The translations under genes were made by a program, and so were the position numbers. A stretch of 55,568 bases of DNA from positions 1 to 55,568 of the forward strand of contig JALGVA010000012.1 in the NCBI GenBank assembly GCA_029820295.1, read 5' to 3'. Below, in pieces: positions 3,342-52,877 of this stretch (the first letter of the stretch is position 1; each line of letters begins with the position of its first letter). Origin of the DNA: Candidatus Zipacnadia bacterium. Its GTDB lineage: Bacteria; Armatimonadota; Zipacnadia; Zipacnadales; UBA5352. The notes under the pieces were generated by a model. It ran no database searches. It was not told the origin of the DNA and worked only from the letters and a program-made list of their open reading frames with translations.

Positions 3342-4517
3342 CTACGCCTCCTCGAAGATCGGCAGGTCCATCGGCGCGCCGGTGTCGATGGCCTGGCGCA
3401 CGGCGATGCCGATGGCGGCGCTCTCGAAACCCGCGCGCACGTCGGCGACCGGCTCCCGGCCCTCGCGGACGGCGCGCGCGAAGTCGGCGATGAGTGCCGG
3501 ATCGGCGCCGCCGTGGCCCGTGTCGCGCGTGGGACGCTCGCGGCGCTGGTTGCGCGTGTAGCGCTCGGTGACCTCGATCCAGGCCTCGCCGGTGTCGTGG
3601 TTGGCCTCGATGTCGAGCTGCGCCCGGCTGCCGTAGAGCGTGAAGTGCAGTCGGTAGTAGGGCGCGAAGTGCACCTCGGAGTACGAGGCCACCCCGCCGG
3701 AGGCGTACTCGATGCCCGCGAAGGTCACGTCCTCGACGTCGCAGGCCTCCGACCACACGCACGGGTCATCGTCGAGGTCGATCTCGATGGGCGGCTGGGC
3801 GAGGCGGCCGGTGTGACCGTGAAAGTGCGGGCAGGTGTCGCGCTCGTCGCAGTCGCGGCAACGTTTGTCGGCGGGCCGATCGCCGGCGAAGAACTGCAGC
3901 GCGCCGATCGCCTGCACCCGCCGCGGTGACGAGCCCATGAACCAGTTGAGCAGGTCGAGCCCGTGCACGCCCTTCTGCAGCACCAGGCTGACCACCACGT
4001 CGCGCGAGCGGGTGCGGGTGCGCCCGAAGAACTGCCCGGCGTCGCGGCCGACATGATCGACCAGCGCCCCCGCCAGCACCTCGCCGATCTCGCCTGAGTC
4101 GATGATCTCGCGCACGCGACGCCACAACTGGCTGAAGCGCAGTTCGAGGAAGGTACCCACGGTCAACCCGGTCTCCCGGCGCAGGCGCGCGATCTCGATG
4201 AGGTCCTCGAAGCTCTGTGCCAGCGGCTTCTCGATCAGCACGTGCCTGCCCGCGGCCAGCGCCTCACGCGCGTTGCCGGCGTGGAAGCGGTCGCCGGTGC
4301 CCACGAAGACCGCGTCGATGCCGGCCTCCCGCGCCATGGTCTCGCCCGAGTCGAAGAGCGCCACGTCCGGGAAGTGCTCGCGCGCGAGGTCGAGCCTGGT
4401 CGTGTCGAAATCCGCCATCGCGACCAGCTCGGTCTCCTCGCCGGTACGCGTCATCTCCGCGATCCAGAAGCCCCGGATCCCCAGGCCCACCACTCCCACT
4501 CTCAGCGGCTCAGCCAT
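3342..4517 (-). CDS. Gfo/Idh/MocA family oxidoreductase
   Basis: A 391-residue cytoplasmic NAD(P)-dependent sugar dehydrogenase-like protein. The N-terminal Rossmann fold shows GVVGLGIRG at residues 8-16, and the family EKP motif is at 96-98, where lysine normally acts in catalysis. A GVHGLDLLNWF segment near 183-193 carries the conserved histidine. A cysteine group C220-x2-C223-x5-C229 followed by histidines marks a subgroup of this family and may bind a structural metal, though its role is not established. Length is usual for the family. It lies 47 bases after the heparinase-like gene and 30 before the secreted barrel protein, so it probably oxidises a sugar released by their action. Substrate and cofactor cannot be read from the sequence. 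Confidence 0.9.
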   Translation of the reverse strand: MAEPLRVGVVGLGIRGFWIAEMTRTGEETELVAMADFDTTRLDLAREHFPDVALFDSGETMAREAGIDAVFVGTGDRFHAGNAREALAAGRHVLIEKPLAQSFEDLIEIARLRRETGLTVGTFLELRFSQLWRRVREIIDSGEIGEVLAGALVDHVGRDAGQFFGRTRTRSRDVVVSLVLQKGVHGLDLLNWFMGSSPRRVQAIGALQFFAGDRPADKRCRDCDERDTCPHFHGHTGRLAQPPIEIDLDDDPCVWSEACDVEDVTFAGIEYASGGVASYSEVHFAPYYRLHFTLYGSRAQLDIEANHDTGEAWIEVTERYTRNQRRERPTRDTGHGGADPALIADFARAVREGREPVADVRAGFESAAIGIAVRQAIDTGAPMDLPIFEEA

Positions 4518-45636: not shown

Positions 45637-47067
45637 TCACAGATCGAGGGCATGGGCCTCCATGGCGCGGAACTCGGCGGCGCCGTCGAGCACCACGAGC
45701 CGGACGGCGCCCGGCCCGCGGCTCGGCGCGTACGCCGCGACCGCAAACTCGTCATCGATGAAGAGCTGCAGCACCTCGCCATCGCACAGCAGCCGCAGGC
45801 GCGCCGGCTGCACGGGCGTCACGTCCCACGGGATCGACGACAGCACCTCCGTGCCGGGCAGCCGCACGATGGCCACCTCCTGCGCGGCCGCGTCGATGAT
45901 CCCGGCGATGATGCCGCCGTCATCGCTCACGCCAATGCCTGCGCTGCCTCCGGTGCCCACGACCACCTCGACGGCGAAGCTCAGGTCGATGGCCTCGCGC
46001 TCGCAGCCCGCGACGGCAGCCGTGCCGTCGGACACGCCCAGCATCATCGCGCGGGTCGCCTGCCACTCGCCGGCGGCGGGTGCGAACTCGGGCTCGCACA
46101 GCGACGCGCCGCGGTACGCGTCCAGGCTCTCCCAGTAGAACGCGCACAGGCTGCCGTCGTGCGCCGCGTCGAGCTTGAGCGGCGGCGCCAGTTCGCGGCG
46201 CGTCGGCCCCCAGGCGTAGAGCAGCAGGTCATCACCGATGCGCTGCGCACGCGCCGCGTAGAGCGGATCGGCCATCGCGCCGGCGACCACGTCCACGGGC
46301 GGCACCTCCCACGGCCCCAGCGGATCGGACGCCTCCAGATAGTGTGTGCCGTTGCGGCACCAGCGCTCGGGCTTGATCTCCAGCGCGCGCTCAGAGTAGC
46401 GCCACAGGCGCGTGGAGTGCAGCAGATACCAGCGGCCGCGCAGCTCGAACAGGTCGGGGACCTCGTGATCGTGGTAGAGGCCCGGCGCGGCCGCCGGTGG
46501 CAGCGGCTCCCAGTGGATCATGTCCTCCGAGCGCGCCAGGCCGATGCAGCCGCGCTCGTGGCGCGGCCGGTCGCCGCGCTCGGTGGCGGTGATGAAGGCG
46601 TAGCACGCGCCTTCGGGCTCGTGCCGGTAGAGGAACGGGTCGCGCCAGGCCACCGGGCTATCGGCGTCCACGTCGGCGAGGGTCTCATACCAGCGCGGGT
46701 CGGGCTCGAGGACGGGATTGCCCTCGTGGCGCTCCCAGTGGCGCAGGTCGTCGGAGGTGAGCAGGCCGACGCGCTGGCAGCGATCCGCACGGGTCAGGCC
46801 GGTGTAGAGCATGTAGTAGCGCCCACCGACCTCGATGGCCGAGCCGGTGAAGATCGCCGCGTCGTCCCACGCGCCCGGCTCGCCGCGGCCGATCACGCGC
46901 CCCTGCTCGGTCCAGTGGATGCCGTCGGTCGAGGTGGCGTGGCCGATGCCCTCCTCGGCGAACTCGTCGCGCGCGGGGATGGCGTATTCGAGGTAGTACA
47001 TGTGCAACGCGTCCGGTCCCCGCAGGAACCAGAAGTCGCCCATGTGCGTATCGCGCGGACGGTACAT
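45637..47067 (-). CDS. GH32-like (fructosidase-family) five-bladed propeller hydrolase
   Basis: A 476-residue protein without signal peptide. The opening HMGDFWFL-x7-HMYYLEY may hold the Asp nucleophile in the position of the GH32 NDPNG motif. WDDAAIFTGSAI, AWRDPF (the RDP motif) and HEVPDLFEL (the ECP-like acid/base segment, here EVPD) follow in GH32 order. The C-terminal 130 residues form a beta-sandwich. GAGGAG precedes the start at a good distance. It is probably a cytosolic beta-fructosidase-like or related enzyme; GH43/GH68 relatives cannot be excluded. It starts the unit with the DUF4091 gene. Confidence 0.85.
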   Translation of the reverse strand: MYRPRDTHMGDFWFLRGPDALHMYYLEYAIPARDEFAEEGIGHATSTDGIHWTEQGRVIGRGEPGAWDDAAIFTGSAIEVGGRYYMLYTGLTRADRCQRVGLLTSDDLRHWERHEGNPVLEPDPRWYETLADVDADSPVAWRDPFLYRHEPEGACYAFITATERGDRPRHERGCIGLARSEDMIHWEPLPPAAAPGLYHDHEVPDLFELRGRWYLLHSTRLWRYSERALEIKPERWCRNGTHYLEASDPLGPWEVPPVDVVAGAMADPLYAARAQRIGDDLLLYAWGPTRRELAPPLKLDAAHDGSLCAFYWESLDAYRGASLCEPEFAPAAGEWQATRAMMLGVSDGTAAVAGCEREAIDLSFAVEVVVGTGGSAGIGVSDDGGIIAGIIDAAAQEVAIVRLPGTEVLSSIPWDVTPVQPARLRLLCDGEVLQLFIDDEFAVAAYAPSRGPGAVRLVVLDGAAEFRAMEAHALDL

Positions 47068-47356
47068 CAGCGTCGCTCCTCATCCCTGTGAGCGGCACAC
47101 CAAACTGAGGCAGCCCGGCACGGGCCCGCACACCTGCTCGGCTGCCGACCCTACTGTTCGCAGTCGGGGCCGTGTTACCCTCCGCCGTGCGCACGGTAGG
47201 GCCGAGCAGTCTCCTTGCTCGGTTGCCGAGGCTTCGAGAAACTGGTACCATTCGCCCCGAAGTGCGTTGGCTGATGGCGAGTGGCCCTTGGACGCGCGGC
47301 CCCTTCGGACTGGTCGCCAGCATGCGCCGATCGTGACCTATGCGGAGGCATGACGC

Positions 47357-49324
47357 ATGACGACTGAACCCGGCGGGCGAGCGGCCGCGATCTTCGGCGT
47401 ACTCTCCGCTGACGAGGATCTGGTGCGGGACCGGATCGAGGCATTCCGCGAGCAACATGCCGGGGGGGCGGCGCACGTCATGCGATCGGCCACACGCACG
47501 TGCGGCGTCGCCGCCGCGGCGGCCGGCTCCGGGCCCGCCGCCAGCACGGCGCTTGCGCCCGATGGGACGACGATGGCCGCAGTTGCGGGTGATGTCTGGG
47601 GCCGCAGCGACAGCAGCGCCGACCCGCACGCGCCGGCGTCCGCACAAGCCCTGCTCTCTCTGTGGGCCAGGTATGGTCCGGGCCTGATCCGCGAGGCGAG
47701 CGGCATGTTCGCAGCCTGCATCTGGGATGGCGCAGCCGACCGGCTTCATCTGCTGCTTGACTGGGTCGGGGGCACCCACGGCCTCTACTACGCGCAGGCC
47801 GGCGAGGCCTTTCTCTTTGCCGACAGCCCCCTGCCGCTGCTGGACGACGCGTGGGACGGCGAGCTTGACACGACCGCGCTGGCCCAGTACCTGGACTTCG
47901 GGCACATCCTCCCGCCCAATACGCTCTTCCGCGGTGTCATGAAGCTGACACCCGGGTGCGCGCTCACTCATGGGCCCGGAGACTCCGTCCGGACGGCGCG
48001 AGTCTTCAGGCATCGTTTCGATCCGGTCCGAAGCGACGACTGGGCAGAGCGCTTCCGGGTGGTGCATCGCCGTAGTCTGGAACGCGCCCTGTCCCACCAG
48101 ACCGGAAGGCCGGGTGTGTTCGTCAGCGGTGGGATTGACTCCAGCTACAACGCCGCCGTCACGCGCGAGCTGACCGGAGGCGAGATGGACACATTCTCCC
48201 TGGTGTACGCCGACGCCTCAGTCGATGAGTCCTACTACTCGCGGCTGATGGCCCGACATCTGGGGGCAAATCACCACGAACTCAGCCTGGCCTCGGCTGA
48301 CGCACTGGACGAGCTTCCCTCCATGGTGTTCGCCCTGCAGGAGCCGGCCATGGACAGCTCGTTTATCCCGACCTTCCACCTGGCCCGGTTCGCTCGTGAG
48401 AGCGTCGATGCGGTGATCGGTGGCGACGGCCCCGACCATCTCCTGGGCCGGCATTACCCGCTGGTAACCGCGCGGGCGGCACTGCGGCACCTGCCGGGCG
48501 CCGGCTGCCTCGCCGACAGTGTGCTCCGGCAGACCCATGCGGGCCTGCGGCACGCCATATGGCGACGCATGCGGCGGCGGGAGTTCGGTCGGTTCGCCTG
48601 GAAGGCGCTGGCGGCCGCGCACGCCGATCCCGTGCAGGCGTACCTCTCGATCTACAGGGAGATCGCGTACCGCAGCCTGATCCCTGCGCGCTTCCGCGCT
48701 CTACTGTCCGCGCAGGCGTGTTCCGAGCTGCCCGACATGGCCTCCGCCGATCCGCTGATCGCAAACGCACCGGCGCCGGAGTCGTCGGACTTCGACCGCC
48801 TGCTGGCGCTGGACACGACCATCGATGGCTCGTTTGGGGTCTTCGCCAAGGTCGGGCACATGGCCGCCTACCATGGCCTCACCGTGCGGGAGCCGTTCCT
48901 GGACCTGGAACTGTGCGAGCTGCTGCACCGCGTGCCCGAAGGCCTGAAGGCTCACGGAACACGCCTGCAGCGGCTGACCAACCGGGCGGCCAAGAAGCAC
49001 CTGCTCTACATCGCGGCCGAAGGCATTGTTCCCGCCGAAGTCCTCCACAGACCTAAGGCCGGGTTCCGGGCCCCGATCGACGCGTGGCTGCGGGAGCGCA
49101 TTGACGGACTCCGAGCTCATCAGTTGCTGCCGGCCCTGCTCAGCCAGGTGGAGCTGCTCGAACCGATGGCCGTGGACAAGCTGCTGCACGAACACTGCAA
49201 CCGCATCTGCGATCACGGGACGTTGCTTCTCATGCTGGTCACTCTGGATCTCTGGTACGCCATATTCGTCCAGAACCGCGGCGCAAGTCCCCACTGGACG
49301 TGGACGGATTGGCTCGCGCAGTAG
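47357..49324 (+). CDS. Asparagine-synthetase-like protein with a dead glutaminase domain
   Basis: A 655-residue protein. GGAGG lies eight bases before the ATG, so the start is firm. AsnB starts with Cys2 (CGIFGV); here the corresponding segment is AAIFGV (residues 10-15) with neither Cys nor Gly, so ammonia from glutamine cannot be made here. The synthetase domain keeps the PP-loop SGGIDSS (257-263), VDESYYSRLMARHLGANHHE (289-308) and a GGDGPDHLLG (355-364) in place of the usual GEGSDE. So it probably adenylates a carboxylate and joins an amine. It stands alone after a 289-base divergent gap from the GH32-like gene. Possible roles include lactam or amide formation; no substrate is visible. 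Confidence 0.88.
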   Translation: MTTEPGGRAAAIFGVLSADEDLVRDRIEAFREQHAGGAAHVMRSATRTCGVAAAAAGSGPAASTALAPDGTTMAAVAGDVWGRSDSSADPHAPASAQALLSLWARYGPGLIREASGMFAACIWDGAADRLHLLLDWVGGTHGLYYAQAGEAFLFADSPLPLLDDAWDGELDTTALAQYLDFGHILPPNTLFRGVMKLTPGCALTHGPGDSVRTARVFRHRFDPVRSDDWAERFRVVHRRSLERALSHQTGRPGVFVSGGIDSSYNAAVTRELTGGEMDTFSLVYADASVDESYYSRLMARHLGANHHELSLASADALDELPSMVFALQEPAMDSSFIPTFHLARFARESVDAVIGGDGPDHLLGRHYPLVTARAALRHLPGAGCLADSVLRQTHAGLRHAIWRRMRRREFGRFAWKALAAAHADPVQAYLSIYREIAYRSLIPARFRALLSAQACSELPDMASADPLIANAPAPESSDFDRLLALDTTIDGSFGVFAKVGHMAAYHGLTVREPFLDLELCELLHRVPEGLKAHGTRLQRLTNRAAKKHLLYIAAEGIVPAEVLHRPKAGFRAPIDAWLRERIDGLRAHQLLPALLSQVELLEPMAVDKLLHEHCNRICDHGTLLLMLVTLDLWYAIFVQNRGASPHWTWTDWLAQ

Positions 49325-49396
49325 CAACATCCCGCGGTTGACACCGGGGTCATGCCGGAGCGTCGTGGCGGCGTATCGGTCGATCCCTGAGCGCTG

Positions 49397-50137
49397 TCAG
49401 TCGGCGGTGCGGAAGCATAGCCCGAAGGGCAGCAGCGGGCGCCCGTAGATGTCCTTGTAGCCGTTGTAGCGCAGGTCGTTGACGCCCAGCGCATAGACCG
49501 TGCCCGGGCTCAGGCGCACCTCCAGCCTCGCGCTCATCCGGTCCTCGCTCAACGTGGCCTCGCCGCCGCGGTACCCCGGATACAGCCCGCTGCCCCGGAA
49601 GATCACCCACGAGTGGTCGCCGGGCGCGATCGGCCGGTCGAAGGTGACCGTGATCTCGCGCAGGCGCGGGTCCACGTCGGTGGCGCCCTGCTCCGGCACC
49701 GAACTCACAACGTGCGGTGGGAGCTGCTCGGGCGTCCGCTCACCGGTAGCGAAGACCCACGCGAAGCCGCACGCCGGCACGCCGTTGGCGTCCACGAAGC
49801 CGCGGTTCTGGGTGTCATTCACCGAGATGGCGTAGGTGCAGTCCTCCACCAGCGAGGCCGGCAGCACGCACGTGGTGTTGCCGTCACGCCAGGCCGGTAC
49901 TGCGTCCCGAATGCCCGGGAACACGCCGGTCCAGCGCACCCCGCCGAACCCGAAGCCATCCGGGTTCATGGGACGATCAAAGGTCACCGTCACCTCCTCC
50001 AGCCACGGATCGACGTTCGCAGCGAACGGCTCGGGGGTGACCGACACAACCTGCGGCGGCAGCGCCGTCAGCTCCTGCGCCCCCGCGCATGCGACCACTG
50101 TCAGCGCCAGGACACAACCGGCAACTGTGCGCTTCAT
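49397..50137 (-). CDS. Secreted protein of two SbsA/Big_5-type Ig-like domains
   Basis: A 246-residue protein with a signal peptide (KRTVAGCVLALTVVACAGAQ; cleavage near 22). The start at 50137 is preferred to an upstream GTG. Two copies of a Big_5/SbsA-type unit are evident: PPQVVSVTPEPFAANVDPW-x-x-x-V-T-V-T-F-D-R-P-M and PPHVVSSVPEQGATDVDPR-x-x-x-I-T-V-T-F-D-R-P-I. This is a known surface-anchoring Ig-like fold. No catalytic residues are seen. It is the last gene of the minus-strand fucosidase unit. Confidence 0.85.
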   Translation of the reverse strand: MKRTVAGCVLALTVVACAGAQELTALPPQVVSVTPEPFAANVDPWLEEVTVTFDRPMNPDGFGFGGVRWTGVFPGIRDAVPAWRDGNTTCVLPASLVEDCTYAISVNDTQNRGFVDANGVPACGFAWVFATGERTPEQLPPHVVSSVPEQGATDVDPRLREITVTFDRPIAPGDHSWVIFRGSGLYPGYRGGEATLSEDRMSARLEVRLSPGTVYALGVNDLRYNGYKDIYGRPLLPFGLCFRTAD

Positions 50138-50171
50138 GGCAACCGTCCCCATTCTGCACTCTGTGCGCTGC

Positions 50172-51911
50172 TTACGTTACCGGCGCCAGCTCAATCCCGC
50201 GCAGGTCCATGGCCTGCTGGCGGCGGATGGTTGGCACCATCACCTTGATGGTGTTCGCGCCCTTCTTGAGCCGGATGACCGCCGCCTGCTTGCGACGGAA
50301 GCGGCCCTGCGTCGAGGCGGTCCTCACCACCTGGCGCTGGCCGCCCTCGACCGCGCCCCCGCCCGTGCTGGCGATCATGCCGTTGGGCATGATGCGCGGC
50401 GCCTCCTTGCCGTTGATGATGAACTCGACCTCGCTGCCGCCCTGGCCCGGCTCCACGCGGTAGTCCAGCCAGACCTGATAGTCGCCGCGCTTCGGCACCG
50501 TCACCGTCCACTCGATGCTGTCGGCGGGGTTGATCCAGTTGCCCGCGTGGACCACGCCGTCCTCGGCCTCGTAGCGGATGCGCATGCCGTGCGGGCCGTC
50601 GAGGAAGCCGTAGAGCACCGGCAGATCGATGCGCCCGTCCTCGCCCGGCCCCAGCACCATCGGCTCGACCTCGGGCGCGCCGTCGAGGTCCACCGCAAAG
50701 ACGCTGGCGACCGGGTCGGGGGCTTCGTCCGGGAGCGTGATGACCCAGTCATCGCCATCGCGCTCGCAGGCCAGCCTGGGCCGGCCCTTCTCGACCACGG
50801 ACACGCGCTTGATCTCGTTCTTCAGCCCGGGCAGGCGGATGGCGCCGTCGGCGGGCCACTCGAAGACATGCACGTAGAGCCGCTCGCCCCTGGTGGTCAC
50901 CCGCCCGTAGAAGGGCAGCAGGTTGAACGGGCTGGCGGTGGTGCCGTAGATGGCCTCGGAGTACCGGTCCATCCACGCGCCGATGGCCTCGAGCCGCTCC
51001 ACAAACTCCTTCTGGATGGTGCCATCGGGCCTGGGGCCGACGTTGAGCAGCAGATTACCGCCCTTGGAGACGATGTCTACGAGCATGCGGATCAGGAACT
51101 CGGGGCTCTTGTAGACGGTCTCCTCCCTGTCGTAGCCCCACCAGTGCGAGGTCATGGTGATGCACGCTTCCCAGACGAGGGGCTTGCCGTCCTCGTCGAA
51201 CAGGCCCGTGGGCGGGATGCGCTGCTCGGGGGTGACCAGGTCCTCGCGCGTGAAGGCGCGGTCGTTGATGATGATGTCGGGCTTGAGGCGCCGCGCCAGG
51301 GCGTTGGTCTCCGCCCCGCCCAGCGCCTCGGGCTTGTTCATCCACCCGCCGTCCCACCACAGCACGAACGGCGCCGGGCGGTACTCAGTCATAAGCTGCT
51401 CGATGTGCTCGCGCATGTACTCGATGTAGCGCATGACGTCGTGGCCCGCTTCAGGGCGCCGGTCGGCCTCCCAGGGCAGGCGCGGCAGGTAGTCCTCGTG
51501 CCACCAGTCCATGATCGAGTAGTAGAAGCCCACCGGGATGCCCTTGCGCTCGAAGGCCGTGGTGATCTCGGCGATGGCGTCCCGCCCGAACGGGGTGTTG
51601 GTGACCTTCCAATCGGTGTTGTGGGCGTCGAACATGCAGAAGCCGTCGTGGTGCTTGGTGGTCACCACCATGTACTTCATGCCCGCGCGCTTCGCCAGGT
51701 CCGCCCAGGCGGCGGGATCGAACCTCTTGGCGGTGAAGCGCGGCGGCAGCCTGTCGTACTCCTCCTGCGGGATCTTCCCCACGTTGCGGATCCACTCGCC
51801 CCTGCCCAGCAGCGCGTAGACGCCCCAGTGGATGAACATGCCGAAGCGTGCCTGCTGGAACCACTCGAGAGTCTGTTCGCGCGTGTGCCTGGTCTTCGCC
51901 TTGCGAGCCAT
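50172..51911 (-). CDS. Alpha-L-fucosidase (GH29) with C-terminal CBM-like domain
   Basis: A 579-residue protein of the GH29 family. Visible: FGMFIHWGVYA near 23-33, TTKHHDGFCMFD near 84-95 and FVLWWDGGW near 182-190, where D187 is the likely nucleophile. The general acid is not as clear. The last 150 residues (RYEAEDGVVHAG..., from about 440) form a CBM6/35-like domain. No signal peptide is present, so the enzyme may be cytosolic, or exported by another way. GGAGG precedes the ATG by eight bases. The gene lies 42 bases after the nitrilase gene and 34 before the Ig-like gene. Confidence 0.93.
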   Translation of the reverse strand: MARKAKTRHTREQTLEWFQQARFGMFIHWGVYALLGRGEWIRNVGKIPQEEYDRLPPRFTAKRFDPAAWADLAKRAGMKYMVVTTKHHDGFCMFDAHNTDWKVTNTPFGRDAIAEITTAFERKGIPVGFYYSIMDWWHEDYLPRLPWEADRRPEAGHDVMRYIEYMREHIEQLMTEYRPAPFVLWWDGGWMNKPEALGGAETNALARRLKPDIIINDRAFTREDLVTPEQRIPPTGLFDEDGKPLVWEACITMTSHWWGYDREETVYKSPEFLIRMLVDIVSKGGNLLLNVGPRPDGTIQKEFVERLEAIGAWMDRYSEAIYGTTASPFNLLPFYGRVTTRGERLYVHVFEWPADGAIRLPGLKNEIKRVSVVEKGRPRLACERDGDDWVITLPDEAPDPVASVFAVDLDGAPEVEPMVLGPGEDGRIDLPVLYGFLDGPHGMRIRYEAEDGVVHAGNWINPADSIEWTVTVPKRGDYQVWLDYRVEPGQGGSEVEFIINGKEAPRIMPNGMIASTGGGAVEGGQRQVVRTASTQGRFRRKQAAVIRLKKGANTIKVMVPTIRRQQAMDLRGIELAPVT

Positions 51912-51953: not shown

Positions 51954-52877
51954 TCAGTCCTCCGGCGTCGCCGCCAGGATCCTGTCGAGCGCATCGCGGC
52001 GATACTCGCGCCAGGTCTCCAGCCCGAACTCCGCGATGATGTCCGCGATGGTCACGTCCTCCATCTCCGACGCCAGCGTGAACTTGCCCTCCGGGTGCGT
52101 GATGTTGAGCGTCACCCCCGGCCCGTACTTCTCCCGGATCGCGTCCCACTGCTCGCGGTTCCTGTCCTGGTGGAAGCACTCGCGGTCGAGGTTCACGTCG
52201 GCGCTGGCGATGGGGTACTGGTAACCGGTCTTCACCAGGGGCAGCCCGGTCATGTCGATGATCGCGTTGATGTGCCCGCCCCACGAGGACATCAGATAGA
52301 AGCCGAACTCCTGCGCCCAGAACTCGAGCTGCCGCCCGGCGTCATACATCGACGGCCAGCACACCACCTGCGCGCCGTTCTCATGCAGTCGCTGGCCGAC
52401 CTCGGGGAAGTTCATGTCGAAGCAGATGGCGAAGCCCACGCGCCCGAAGTCGGCCTCGAAGGCCGGCGCGTCCGAGCCGGGCGTAATGCCGGCCTCAAGC
52501 TCCCCGCGCGTCGGGCGCATCTTGTGGTAGACGCCGACCACCTCGCCCGCGCGATCGACCAGCGCGGCCGCGTTGTAGAAACGCCCGTCGCGCGCCTCGA
52601 CGGTGGTGGCGACGCCGTAGCAGTTGTTGCGGCGGCAGGCCTCGCCGACGGCGTCGGTGGTCGGCCCGGGGATGGGCTCGGCCCACTTCTCCCACTCGTC
52701 GAATGCGAAGTGCCGCTGGGCGAAGATCTCGGGCAGGCACACGAGGTCGGAGCCATCCTGCGCGGCACGGTCGATCATCTCGACGGCCTGGCGGCGGTTG
52801 GACTCGAGCTGCGCCTCGCCCTCGGCCTCCTTCCTGGGGCTCCAGGAGACGGTGGTCAGTCGCGCGTAGCGGGCCAT
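51954..52877 (-). CDS. Carbon-nitrogen hydrolase (nitrilase superfamily)
   Basis: A 307-residue protein of usual length. The catalytic triad is complete: E50 (CLPEIFA), K119 (VYHKMRPT) and C152 (FAICFDMNFPE). The family hydrolyses amides or nitriles; the substrate is not evident, but a link to Rid/amine chemistry or N-acyl removal in the neighbourhood is plausible. GGAGG lies seven bases before the ATG. It lies 42 bases before the fucosidase gene, probably in one operon. Confidence 0.92.
   Translation of the reverse strand: MARYARLTTVSWSPRKEAEGEAQLESNRRQAVEMIDRAAQDGSDLVCLPEIFAQRHFAFDEWEKWAEPIPGPTTDAVGEACRRNNCYGVATTVEARDGRFYNAAALVDRAGEVVGVYHKMRPTRGELEAGITPGSDAPAFEADFGRVGFAICFDMNFPEVGQRLHENGAQVVCWPSMYDAGRQLEFWAQEFGFYLMSSWGGHINAIIDMTGLPLVKTGYQYPIASADVNLDRECFHQDRNREQWDAIREKYGPGVTLNITHPEGKFTLASEMEDVTIADIIAEFGLETWREYRRDALDRILAATPED

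Follow-up and report, generated by a model that had tools for sequence, protein, structure and literature searches.

A consistently Cys-less, divergent branch of exosortase-linked AsnB-like amidotransferases, with a putative glutaminase-dead amide ligase from Candidatus Zipacnadia

Introduction

Beta-lactam and carbapenam synthetases (BLS and CPS), like the protein described here, lack the glutaminase Cys, and they use a Tyr-Glu catalytic dyad. The hydroxyamidotransferase TsnB9 acts in a natural-product pathway. As for sugar-directed relatives, WbpS, WbqG and PGN_1234 are described as converting uronic acids to uronamides, and such genes are reported in exosortase clusters (PMC7468200, PMC3684757); in a polysaccharide-mutant screen, an amidotransferase gene of this type is reported to have been hit 12 times (PMC11340318). 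According to PMC7468200, the compound to which exosortases attach PEP-CTERM proteins has yet to be identified and may be a sugar modified with an amino acid. The nitrile synthetase PesC is reported to share a Glu-Tyr pair, spaced like Glu352/Tyr357 of E. coli AsnB, with four further AsnB-like enzymes, and its Tyr-to-Phe variant to be inactive (PMC13060819); PesC and SoaC are described as glutamine users that also accept ammonia directly (PMC13060819, PMC13284220). Our search of the open-licence literature returned no paper on Cys-less exosortase amidotransferases.

We analysed a 55,568-nucleotide stretch of DNA from a Candidatus Zipacnadia bacterium (hereafter the window, meaning the whole stretch), which encodes an AsnB-like protein of 655 residues. 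The protein resembles the TIGR03108/WbpS/WbqG/PGN_1234 enzymes in its best NCBIfam model, in its two-domain layout and in the location of its orthologues in exosortase clusters beside a WbpP-like epimerase, but its clade lacks the catalytic Cys and the Gln pocket, scores 184-287 bits against 817 and has a His/His pair in place of Glu/Tyr. With Escherichia coli AsnB it shares the fold (Z 27.6 over 448 residues), the PP-loop and the acid and lysine motifs; unlike AsnB, it has no glutaminase site, falls outside the AsnB clade and comes from a host without AsnRS. Among solved structures, TsnB9 (7YLZ) comes closest, with a Z of 29.5 over 522 residues (sequence E 7.4e-11) and about 19% identity to the window protein. 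BLS and CPS have the same fold (Z about 26; BLS/CPS 26.4) and possibly a non-glutamine nucleophile in common with it, but they differ in gene context, and no small-molecule antibiotic cluster was seen. Lasso peptide cyclases (NF033535) have an AsnB-like synthetase domain as well; however, the window protein scores 48.3 bits against the NF033535 cut-off of 525, and neither a precursor in the flanking gaps nor a lasso partner among the neighbours scanned was found. The nearest family is that of the exosortase-associated amidotransferases, and not the lasso or beta-lactam enzymes.

The gene and its near-identical copy

The protein begins with MTTEPGGRAAAIFGV, and an in-frame stop lies just upstream of its open reading frame (stop-to-stop reading RMTTEPGG...). 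A 3,486-bp contig from a separate bin (genome G001) is collinear with window positions 46963-50448 at 99.5% identity and encodes an identical N-terminus; the closest named match is a Candidatus Zipacnadia MAG contig, with 99% identity over the whole protein. Given this stop and the agreement of the copy, the gene appears to be correctly started and in frame, and on the same two grounds neither an overlooked earlier start nor a frameshift can give back a Cys. The genome of the window (G000) is a fragmented MAG of 331 contigs with 4.13% contamination, so that the window contig may be mis-binned. The features of the locus are collected in Table 1.

Table 1. Features of the window gene and its surroundings, and copies of the small RNA R1 (window coordinates unless a locus is named)
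Feature	Coordinates	Strand	Basis or remark
GH32/GH43-like glycosidase, neighbour outside the system	45637..47067	-	family scan
Likely ribosome-binding site GGAGG	47344..47348	+	8 bases 5' of the ATG; read from sequence
AsnB-like amide synthetase gene, predicted	47357..49324	+	655 aa, no catalytic Cys; ORF translation, Pfam, NCBIfam, model
Ala10 codon, at the place of catalytic Cys1	47384..47386	+	sequence alignment and structural alignment to 1CT9
N-terminal domain, glutaminase fold, residues 10 to about 215	47384..48001	+	lacks Cys1, Arg49, Asn74 and Asp98
PP-loop SGGIDSS, residues 257-263	48125..48145	+	
GDGPDHLLGRH, residues 356-366	48422..48454	+	acid and Asp retained; His361/His366 in place of Glu352/Tyr357 (E. 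coli numbering)
PKAGFRAP, residues 566-573	49052..49075	+	conserved Lys567
Big_5-domain protein, neighbour outside the system	49397..50152	-	family scan
R1 copy	L078:12904-12986 (G000:C63)	-	
R1 copy	L044:3984-4067	-	
R1 copy	L044:4375-4456	-	
R1 copy	L045:2479-2561	-	
R1 copy	L045:3793-3875	-	
R1 copy	L045:4290-4372	-	
R1 copy	L084:10232-10314	-	
R1 copy	L083:10618-10706	-	
R1 copy	L046:3525-3615	+	

Clade membership and family assignment

Clade members occur in 5 of the 46 genomes of the class, namely G000, G001, G031 (48% identity), G038 (47%) and G013 (45%, truncated where its contig ends). When 291 genomes of the phylum were searched at E 1e-40, no other close relative turned up, and the best remaining match (2.6e-53) is 32% identical. 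In a tree of 35 AsnB-like proteins, the five members group together with 100/100 support, E. coli AsnB lying outside the group. Of the NCBIfam models, TIGR03108 fits the clade best (183.5 bits for the window protein, 286.7 for G031, 282.2 for G038 and 125 for G013, against a cut-off of 816.9), and it is also the best for the scanned Cys-intact homologues of the class (568-614 bits); Cys-intact homologues, at 568-724 bits, likewise fall below the cut-off. The clade is a real, consistently Cys-less and divergent branch of the exosortase-linked amidotransferases.

The window gene is the only full-length Asn_synthase match in G000. Six other PF00733 matches in that genome are weak and cover 31-82 model positions; we discarded them as Asn synthetases on account of this partial cover, and by their translations they include at least GuaA-, MnmA-, LarE- and NadE-like PP-loop proteins.

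The glutaminase half

Glutaminase and synthetase residues are numbered below as in E. coli AsnB, with the Cys as 1. Nine extra residues precede Ala10, which stands at the place of Cys1; in the AlphaFold model of the protein (mean pLDDT 73, pTM 0.80), a structural alignment matches this Ala to the first residue of E. coli AsnB (1CT9), and the Pfam matches to the glutaminase domain are weak. The first-pass annotation of this DNA had reported an Ala in place of the catalytic Cys, and the apparently correct start and frame, the near-identical copy and the structural alignment all agree with it; no Cys came from another start or frame. AsnB-type glutaminase chemistry requires a free N-terminal Cys, so that the nine extra residues would also bar it.

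At the columns of the glutamine-binding residues Arg49, Asn74 and Asp98, the window protein has a gap, Ala and Ser, respectively. In the 35-row alignment, Arg49, Asn74, Gly75 and Asp98 are kept in all 18 Cys-bearing rows and Glu76 in 17 of them, and neither Asn74 nor Asp98 occurs in any of the 16 Cys-less rows that have letters at these columns. The Cys position itself holds Ala in G000 and G001, Asp in G031 and Glu in G038 (the N-terminus of the G013 protein is missing). As the orthologues carry Asp and Glu there, the loss of the Cys looks like more than chance decay. The glutamine-hydrolysing site is lost in all orthologues whose start can be read.

Placing the 15 Cys-less rows tested in one group was rejected (p-AU 5.45e-9), the smallest number of changes being 3, with the caveat that long branches may bias this result; the change count left out G013, which lacks its N-terminus, and G040. 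Subject to the same caveat, the other Cys-less AsnB-like proteins of the class would represent separate origins. We also observed another group of Cys-less proteins of the AsnB kind, itself divergent (L023, L024, L025, L027, L028 and L030, with starts such as MAGYW, MSSLAG, MSSMAG and MSLLGG), which in the 35-row alignment lacks the synthetase acid and lysine too and which shares a contig with an exosortase cluster in two genomes, G023 and G037. These proteins are probably pseudoenzymes or catalysts of new chemistry.

The synthetase half

The C-terminal half matches the full Asn_synthase domain (PF00733, 2.1e-54). The window protein retains SGGIDSS, GDGPD (with Asp357 and Asp360) and PKAGFRAP, in line with the earlier observation that the PP-loop and the downstream motifs persist. 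All five clade members have the PP-loop SGG[IL]DSS (the first Ser of G013 lies past the contig end), Asp for the acid at 348, and the Asp351 and Lys449 equivalents.

The substrate side is altered. Glu352 and Tyr357 are present in 18 of 18 Cys-bearing rows of the 35-row alignment and are His and His in all five clade members. Searching viral contigs with the five-member clade alignment gave no relatives; a broader alignment recovered ordinary AsnB-like ORFs, which served as a control and for a fold alignment. Once those below 430 aa or more than 85% identical to a kept one had been dropped, 34 remained, of which 24 entered the structure alignment, and the MC start and a DE....Y motif, read by eye, are found in 34 of 34. 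Judging by its spacing, the Glu-Tyr pair of PesC may be equated with Glu352/Tyr357. Its replacement by His/His suggests that carboxylate handling or amine deprotonation differs from that of ordinary AsnB. At the column that we assign to the catalytic Tyr of BLS, all five members have Asp. With the glutaminase residues lost and the Glu/Tyr pair replaced, both active sites of the clade depart from those of ordinary AsnB, and with the loss of a pair that is considered to matter in PesC, any activity of the clade is putative.

Gene neighbourhoods

The window gene stands amid glycosidase genes, on another contig than the exosortase cluster of its genome. The first-pass annotation had described it as alone and without a known partner, which holds at this locus but not in the relatives. 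In G031 and G038, the orthologue lies at the head of an exosortase/PEP-CTERM polysaccharide cluster, between genes for a WbpP-like nucleotide-sugar epimerase and a GHMP kinase, and is followed downstream by those for the GHMP kinase, an initiating sugar transferase, DUF3485, PMT_2, an exosortase, a GalU-like nucleotidyltransferase and a GT4 glycosyltransferase. The PEP-CTERM-like protein of the G031 cluster scores 20.2 bits against a cut-off of 20.7, and that of G038 was identified by its sequence match to the G031 protein. The contig-cut orthologue of G013 adjoins the same GHMP kinase gene, and in G010 a Cys-intact homologue occupies the equivalent slot. The cluster of G000 itself (contig C63) comprises genes for the epimerase, GHMP kinase, glycosyltransferases, PEP-CTERM protein and exosortase, and its Asn slot is empty.

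Nine clusters have the GHMP kinase and the exosortase on one contig (G000, G010, G014, G023, G025, G027, G031, G037 and G038). In two of them, the slot upstream of the GHMP kinase gene is filled by a clade member, in one by a Cys-intact homologue and in another by two divergent Cys-less proteins; the remaining five, including G000, have no Asn-like gene there. The Asn slot is an accessory one, five of the nine whole clusters being devoid of an Asn gene. The presence of Cys-intact and Cys-less versions in one syntenic slot provides a natural comparison for the loss of the glutaminase half in the AsnB fold.

Several other genes near these loci were noted. On contig C11 of G003, a Cys-less amidotransferase gene (MSAICG, L034:1240-3201) and a Cys-intact one (MCGICG, L014:1213-3153) form a tandem upstream of an exosortase cluster and so lend themselves to a direct comparison of the two forms. 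A PP-loop protein with weak QueC/DUF7411 matches is encoded downstream of the Cys-less gene in G038 (L045:14105-15259, + strand) and G013 (L046:1036-2289, - strand); searches of the other cluster regions did not find it. The window also encodes a CN_hydrolase (51954-52877, - strand), which we considered as a glutaminase acting in trans and set aside, as no such gene occurs among the scanned proteins of the G031 and G038 clusters.

Selection and codon use

In the G031-G038 comparison, the N-domain has a dN/dS of 0.133 and the C-domain one of 0.128, while the GHMP kinase and the exosortase beside them have 0.123 and 0.141, respectively (values approximate at dS 1.5-1.7). These similar values indicate that the Cys-less N-domain is held as firmly as the neighbouring genes, and both domains are under purifying selection in this pair. 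Between the window gene and G031, dN/dS is 0.34 for the N-domain and 0.19 for the C-domain, and 4 of the 6 amino-acid changes between the G000 and G001 copies fall in the N-domain, which looks relaxed in the window lineage. The window gene has the oddest codon use of eight genes compared, with a GC3 of 0.83 against 0.89-0.95 in seven neighbours and a codon score of 0.125 against 0.245-0.615, in keeping with a gene that was moved or acquired.

Proposed role and alternatives

With a little better than even confidence, we propose that the clade is a glutaminase-dead ligase of WbpS/TIGR03108 kinship that adenylates a uronic-acid carboxylate of a surface glycan and turns it into an amide, with either free ammonia or a different amine as nucleophile, in the exosortase/PEP-CTERM pathway. 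We infer both the substrate and the nucleophile. The functional home would be the exosortase/PEP-CTERM surface-polysaccharide pathway, although the G000 gene stands away from its cluster. There the enzyme would adenylate the C6 carboxylate of a nucleotide- or lipid-linked uronic-acid sugar; cytosolic ammonia or another small amine would attack the adenylate to give a uronamide or a substituted uronamide, and the role left to the N-terminal domain would be that of a scaffold for the structure and the substrate pocket.

A uronic acid is the likeliest acid on three counts, namely the TIGR03108/WbpS kinship, the epimerase of the slot, which is closest to a capsular protein and WbpP with TviC as its best NCBIfam model, and the epimerase-like gene at the equivalent place in the G000 cluster, whose product is closest to UDP-glucuronate decarboxylases (298 bits). 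No uronic-acid dehydrogenase was found among the cluster proteins scanned. Free ammonia would be the simplest nitrogen source for the Cys-less clade, given that PesC and SoaC take it directly, and the changed Glu/Tyr pair may leave room for another amine. An amide ligase of the cluster that is unable to use glutamine, and whose carboxylate-handling pair is replaced, would point to a changed amide on the exosortase-linked glycan, making the Cys-less enzyme a candidate for direct substrate screening.

A more specific version, which we regard as unlikely, is that the activated uronic acid is joined to an organic amine such as an amino acid, an amino sugar or ethanolamine, with His/His as the new base, so that a substituted amide is built either on the PEP-CTERM acceptor or on the glycan of the surface. 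The loss of the glutaminase would then be a switch of nucleophile, one that arose more than once in the class.

We find it rather improbable that the protein is instead a degenerate, inactive AsnB-like pseudoenzyme, serving as a scaffold or regulator, or that its gene is being lost. Such decay would fit the absence of both the glutaminase and the Glu352/Tyr357 pair, as well as the relocation, odd GC3 and codon score and relaxed N-domain of the window copy; moreover, the lack of the synthetase acid and lysine in the separate Cys-less group (e.g. G023a, G015, G022, G035, G037 and G042) means that pseudoenzymes of the AsnB fold may exist in the class. However, the PP-loop and the Asp348, Asp351 and Lys449 equivalents are kept in five of five clade members, and dN/dS is 0.13 in both domains of the G031-G038 pair, like that of the neighbours.

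Much less probable is a peptide or metabolite ligase of the beta-lactam synthetase or lasso-cyclase kind, with a small partner encoded elsewhere. The first-pass annotation had assigned the protein to that pattern, and part of this assignment stands, as a dead glutaminase beside a kept adenylating domain indicates an amide ligase that does not draw its ammonia from glutamine, and BLS and CPS are among the top structural matches (Z 25-26). The more specific part is not supported, given the low NF033535 score and the fact that AsnB and TsnB9 match structurally as well as BLS and CPS or better. The two gaps flanking the window gene, searched for the kind of small peptide gene that had been suggested as something to look for, contain no coding-like small ORF and no coding signal for a ribosomal peptide partner; no lasso B1/B2 partner was found among the other eight of the nine large ORFs family-scanned around the gene, and the neighbours of the orthologues encode sugar enzymes and an exosortase.

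An ammonia-dependent asparagine synthetase supplying the cell's asparagine would suit the sole full-length Asn_synthase protein of G000 but is very improbable, as PF00733 finds nothing at 1e-20 in 29 of the 46 genomes of the class, the orthologues belong to a polysaccharide cluster, the substrate-side pair is changed, and AsnRS (TIGR00457) is found in 1 of the 46 genomes and absent from G000, where GatB is present (checked in G000 only), so that the class seems to make Asn on tRNA and free asparagine is an unlikely product.

Small RNAs near the clusters

In exosortase clusters, a conserved small RNA with strong covariation (model R1, 83 positions) is encoded shortly upstream of the GHMP kinase gene and in the opposite orientation to it (Table 1), with further copies on L085, L086 and L088. 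By eye, most copies are preceded by a TTGACA/TATAAT-like promoter and end in a GC hairpin with a T-rich tail. Compensatory changes occur in 9 of 20 pairs (23 cells, against a shuffled mean of 8.3), and no Rfam match was found in the seven loci searched. The model gives 18 hits in 14 of the 46 class genomes, with one in the whole of G000; the exact hairpin pattern of G031 and G038 has no match there, but a diverged copy was found by profile and by model. Six of the 18 hits lie outside the seed. The hit on the contig of G011 follows the Asn gene of that genome, whereas the remaining five are distant from the cluster genes that were looked for, some of them near two-component regulators.

Between R1 copies, we observed repeated non-coding stretches (L045:3190-3350, 3560-3770 and 4060-4270; L044:3740-3960) that, by eye, have a promoter-like start, a conserved ACGGGGGG.. 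box and a long hairpin followed by a T-run. No Rfam match was found in L044 or L045, and the stretches are perhaps a second RNA of about 200 bases. In the window, the only Rfam match is a tRNA gene at 195-283 on the + strand.
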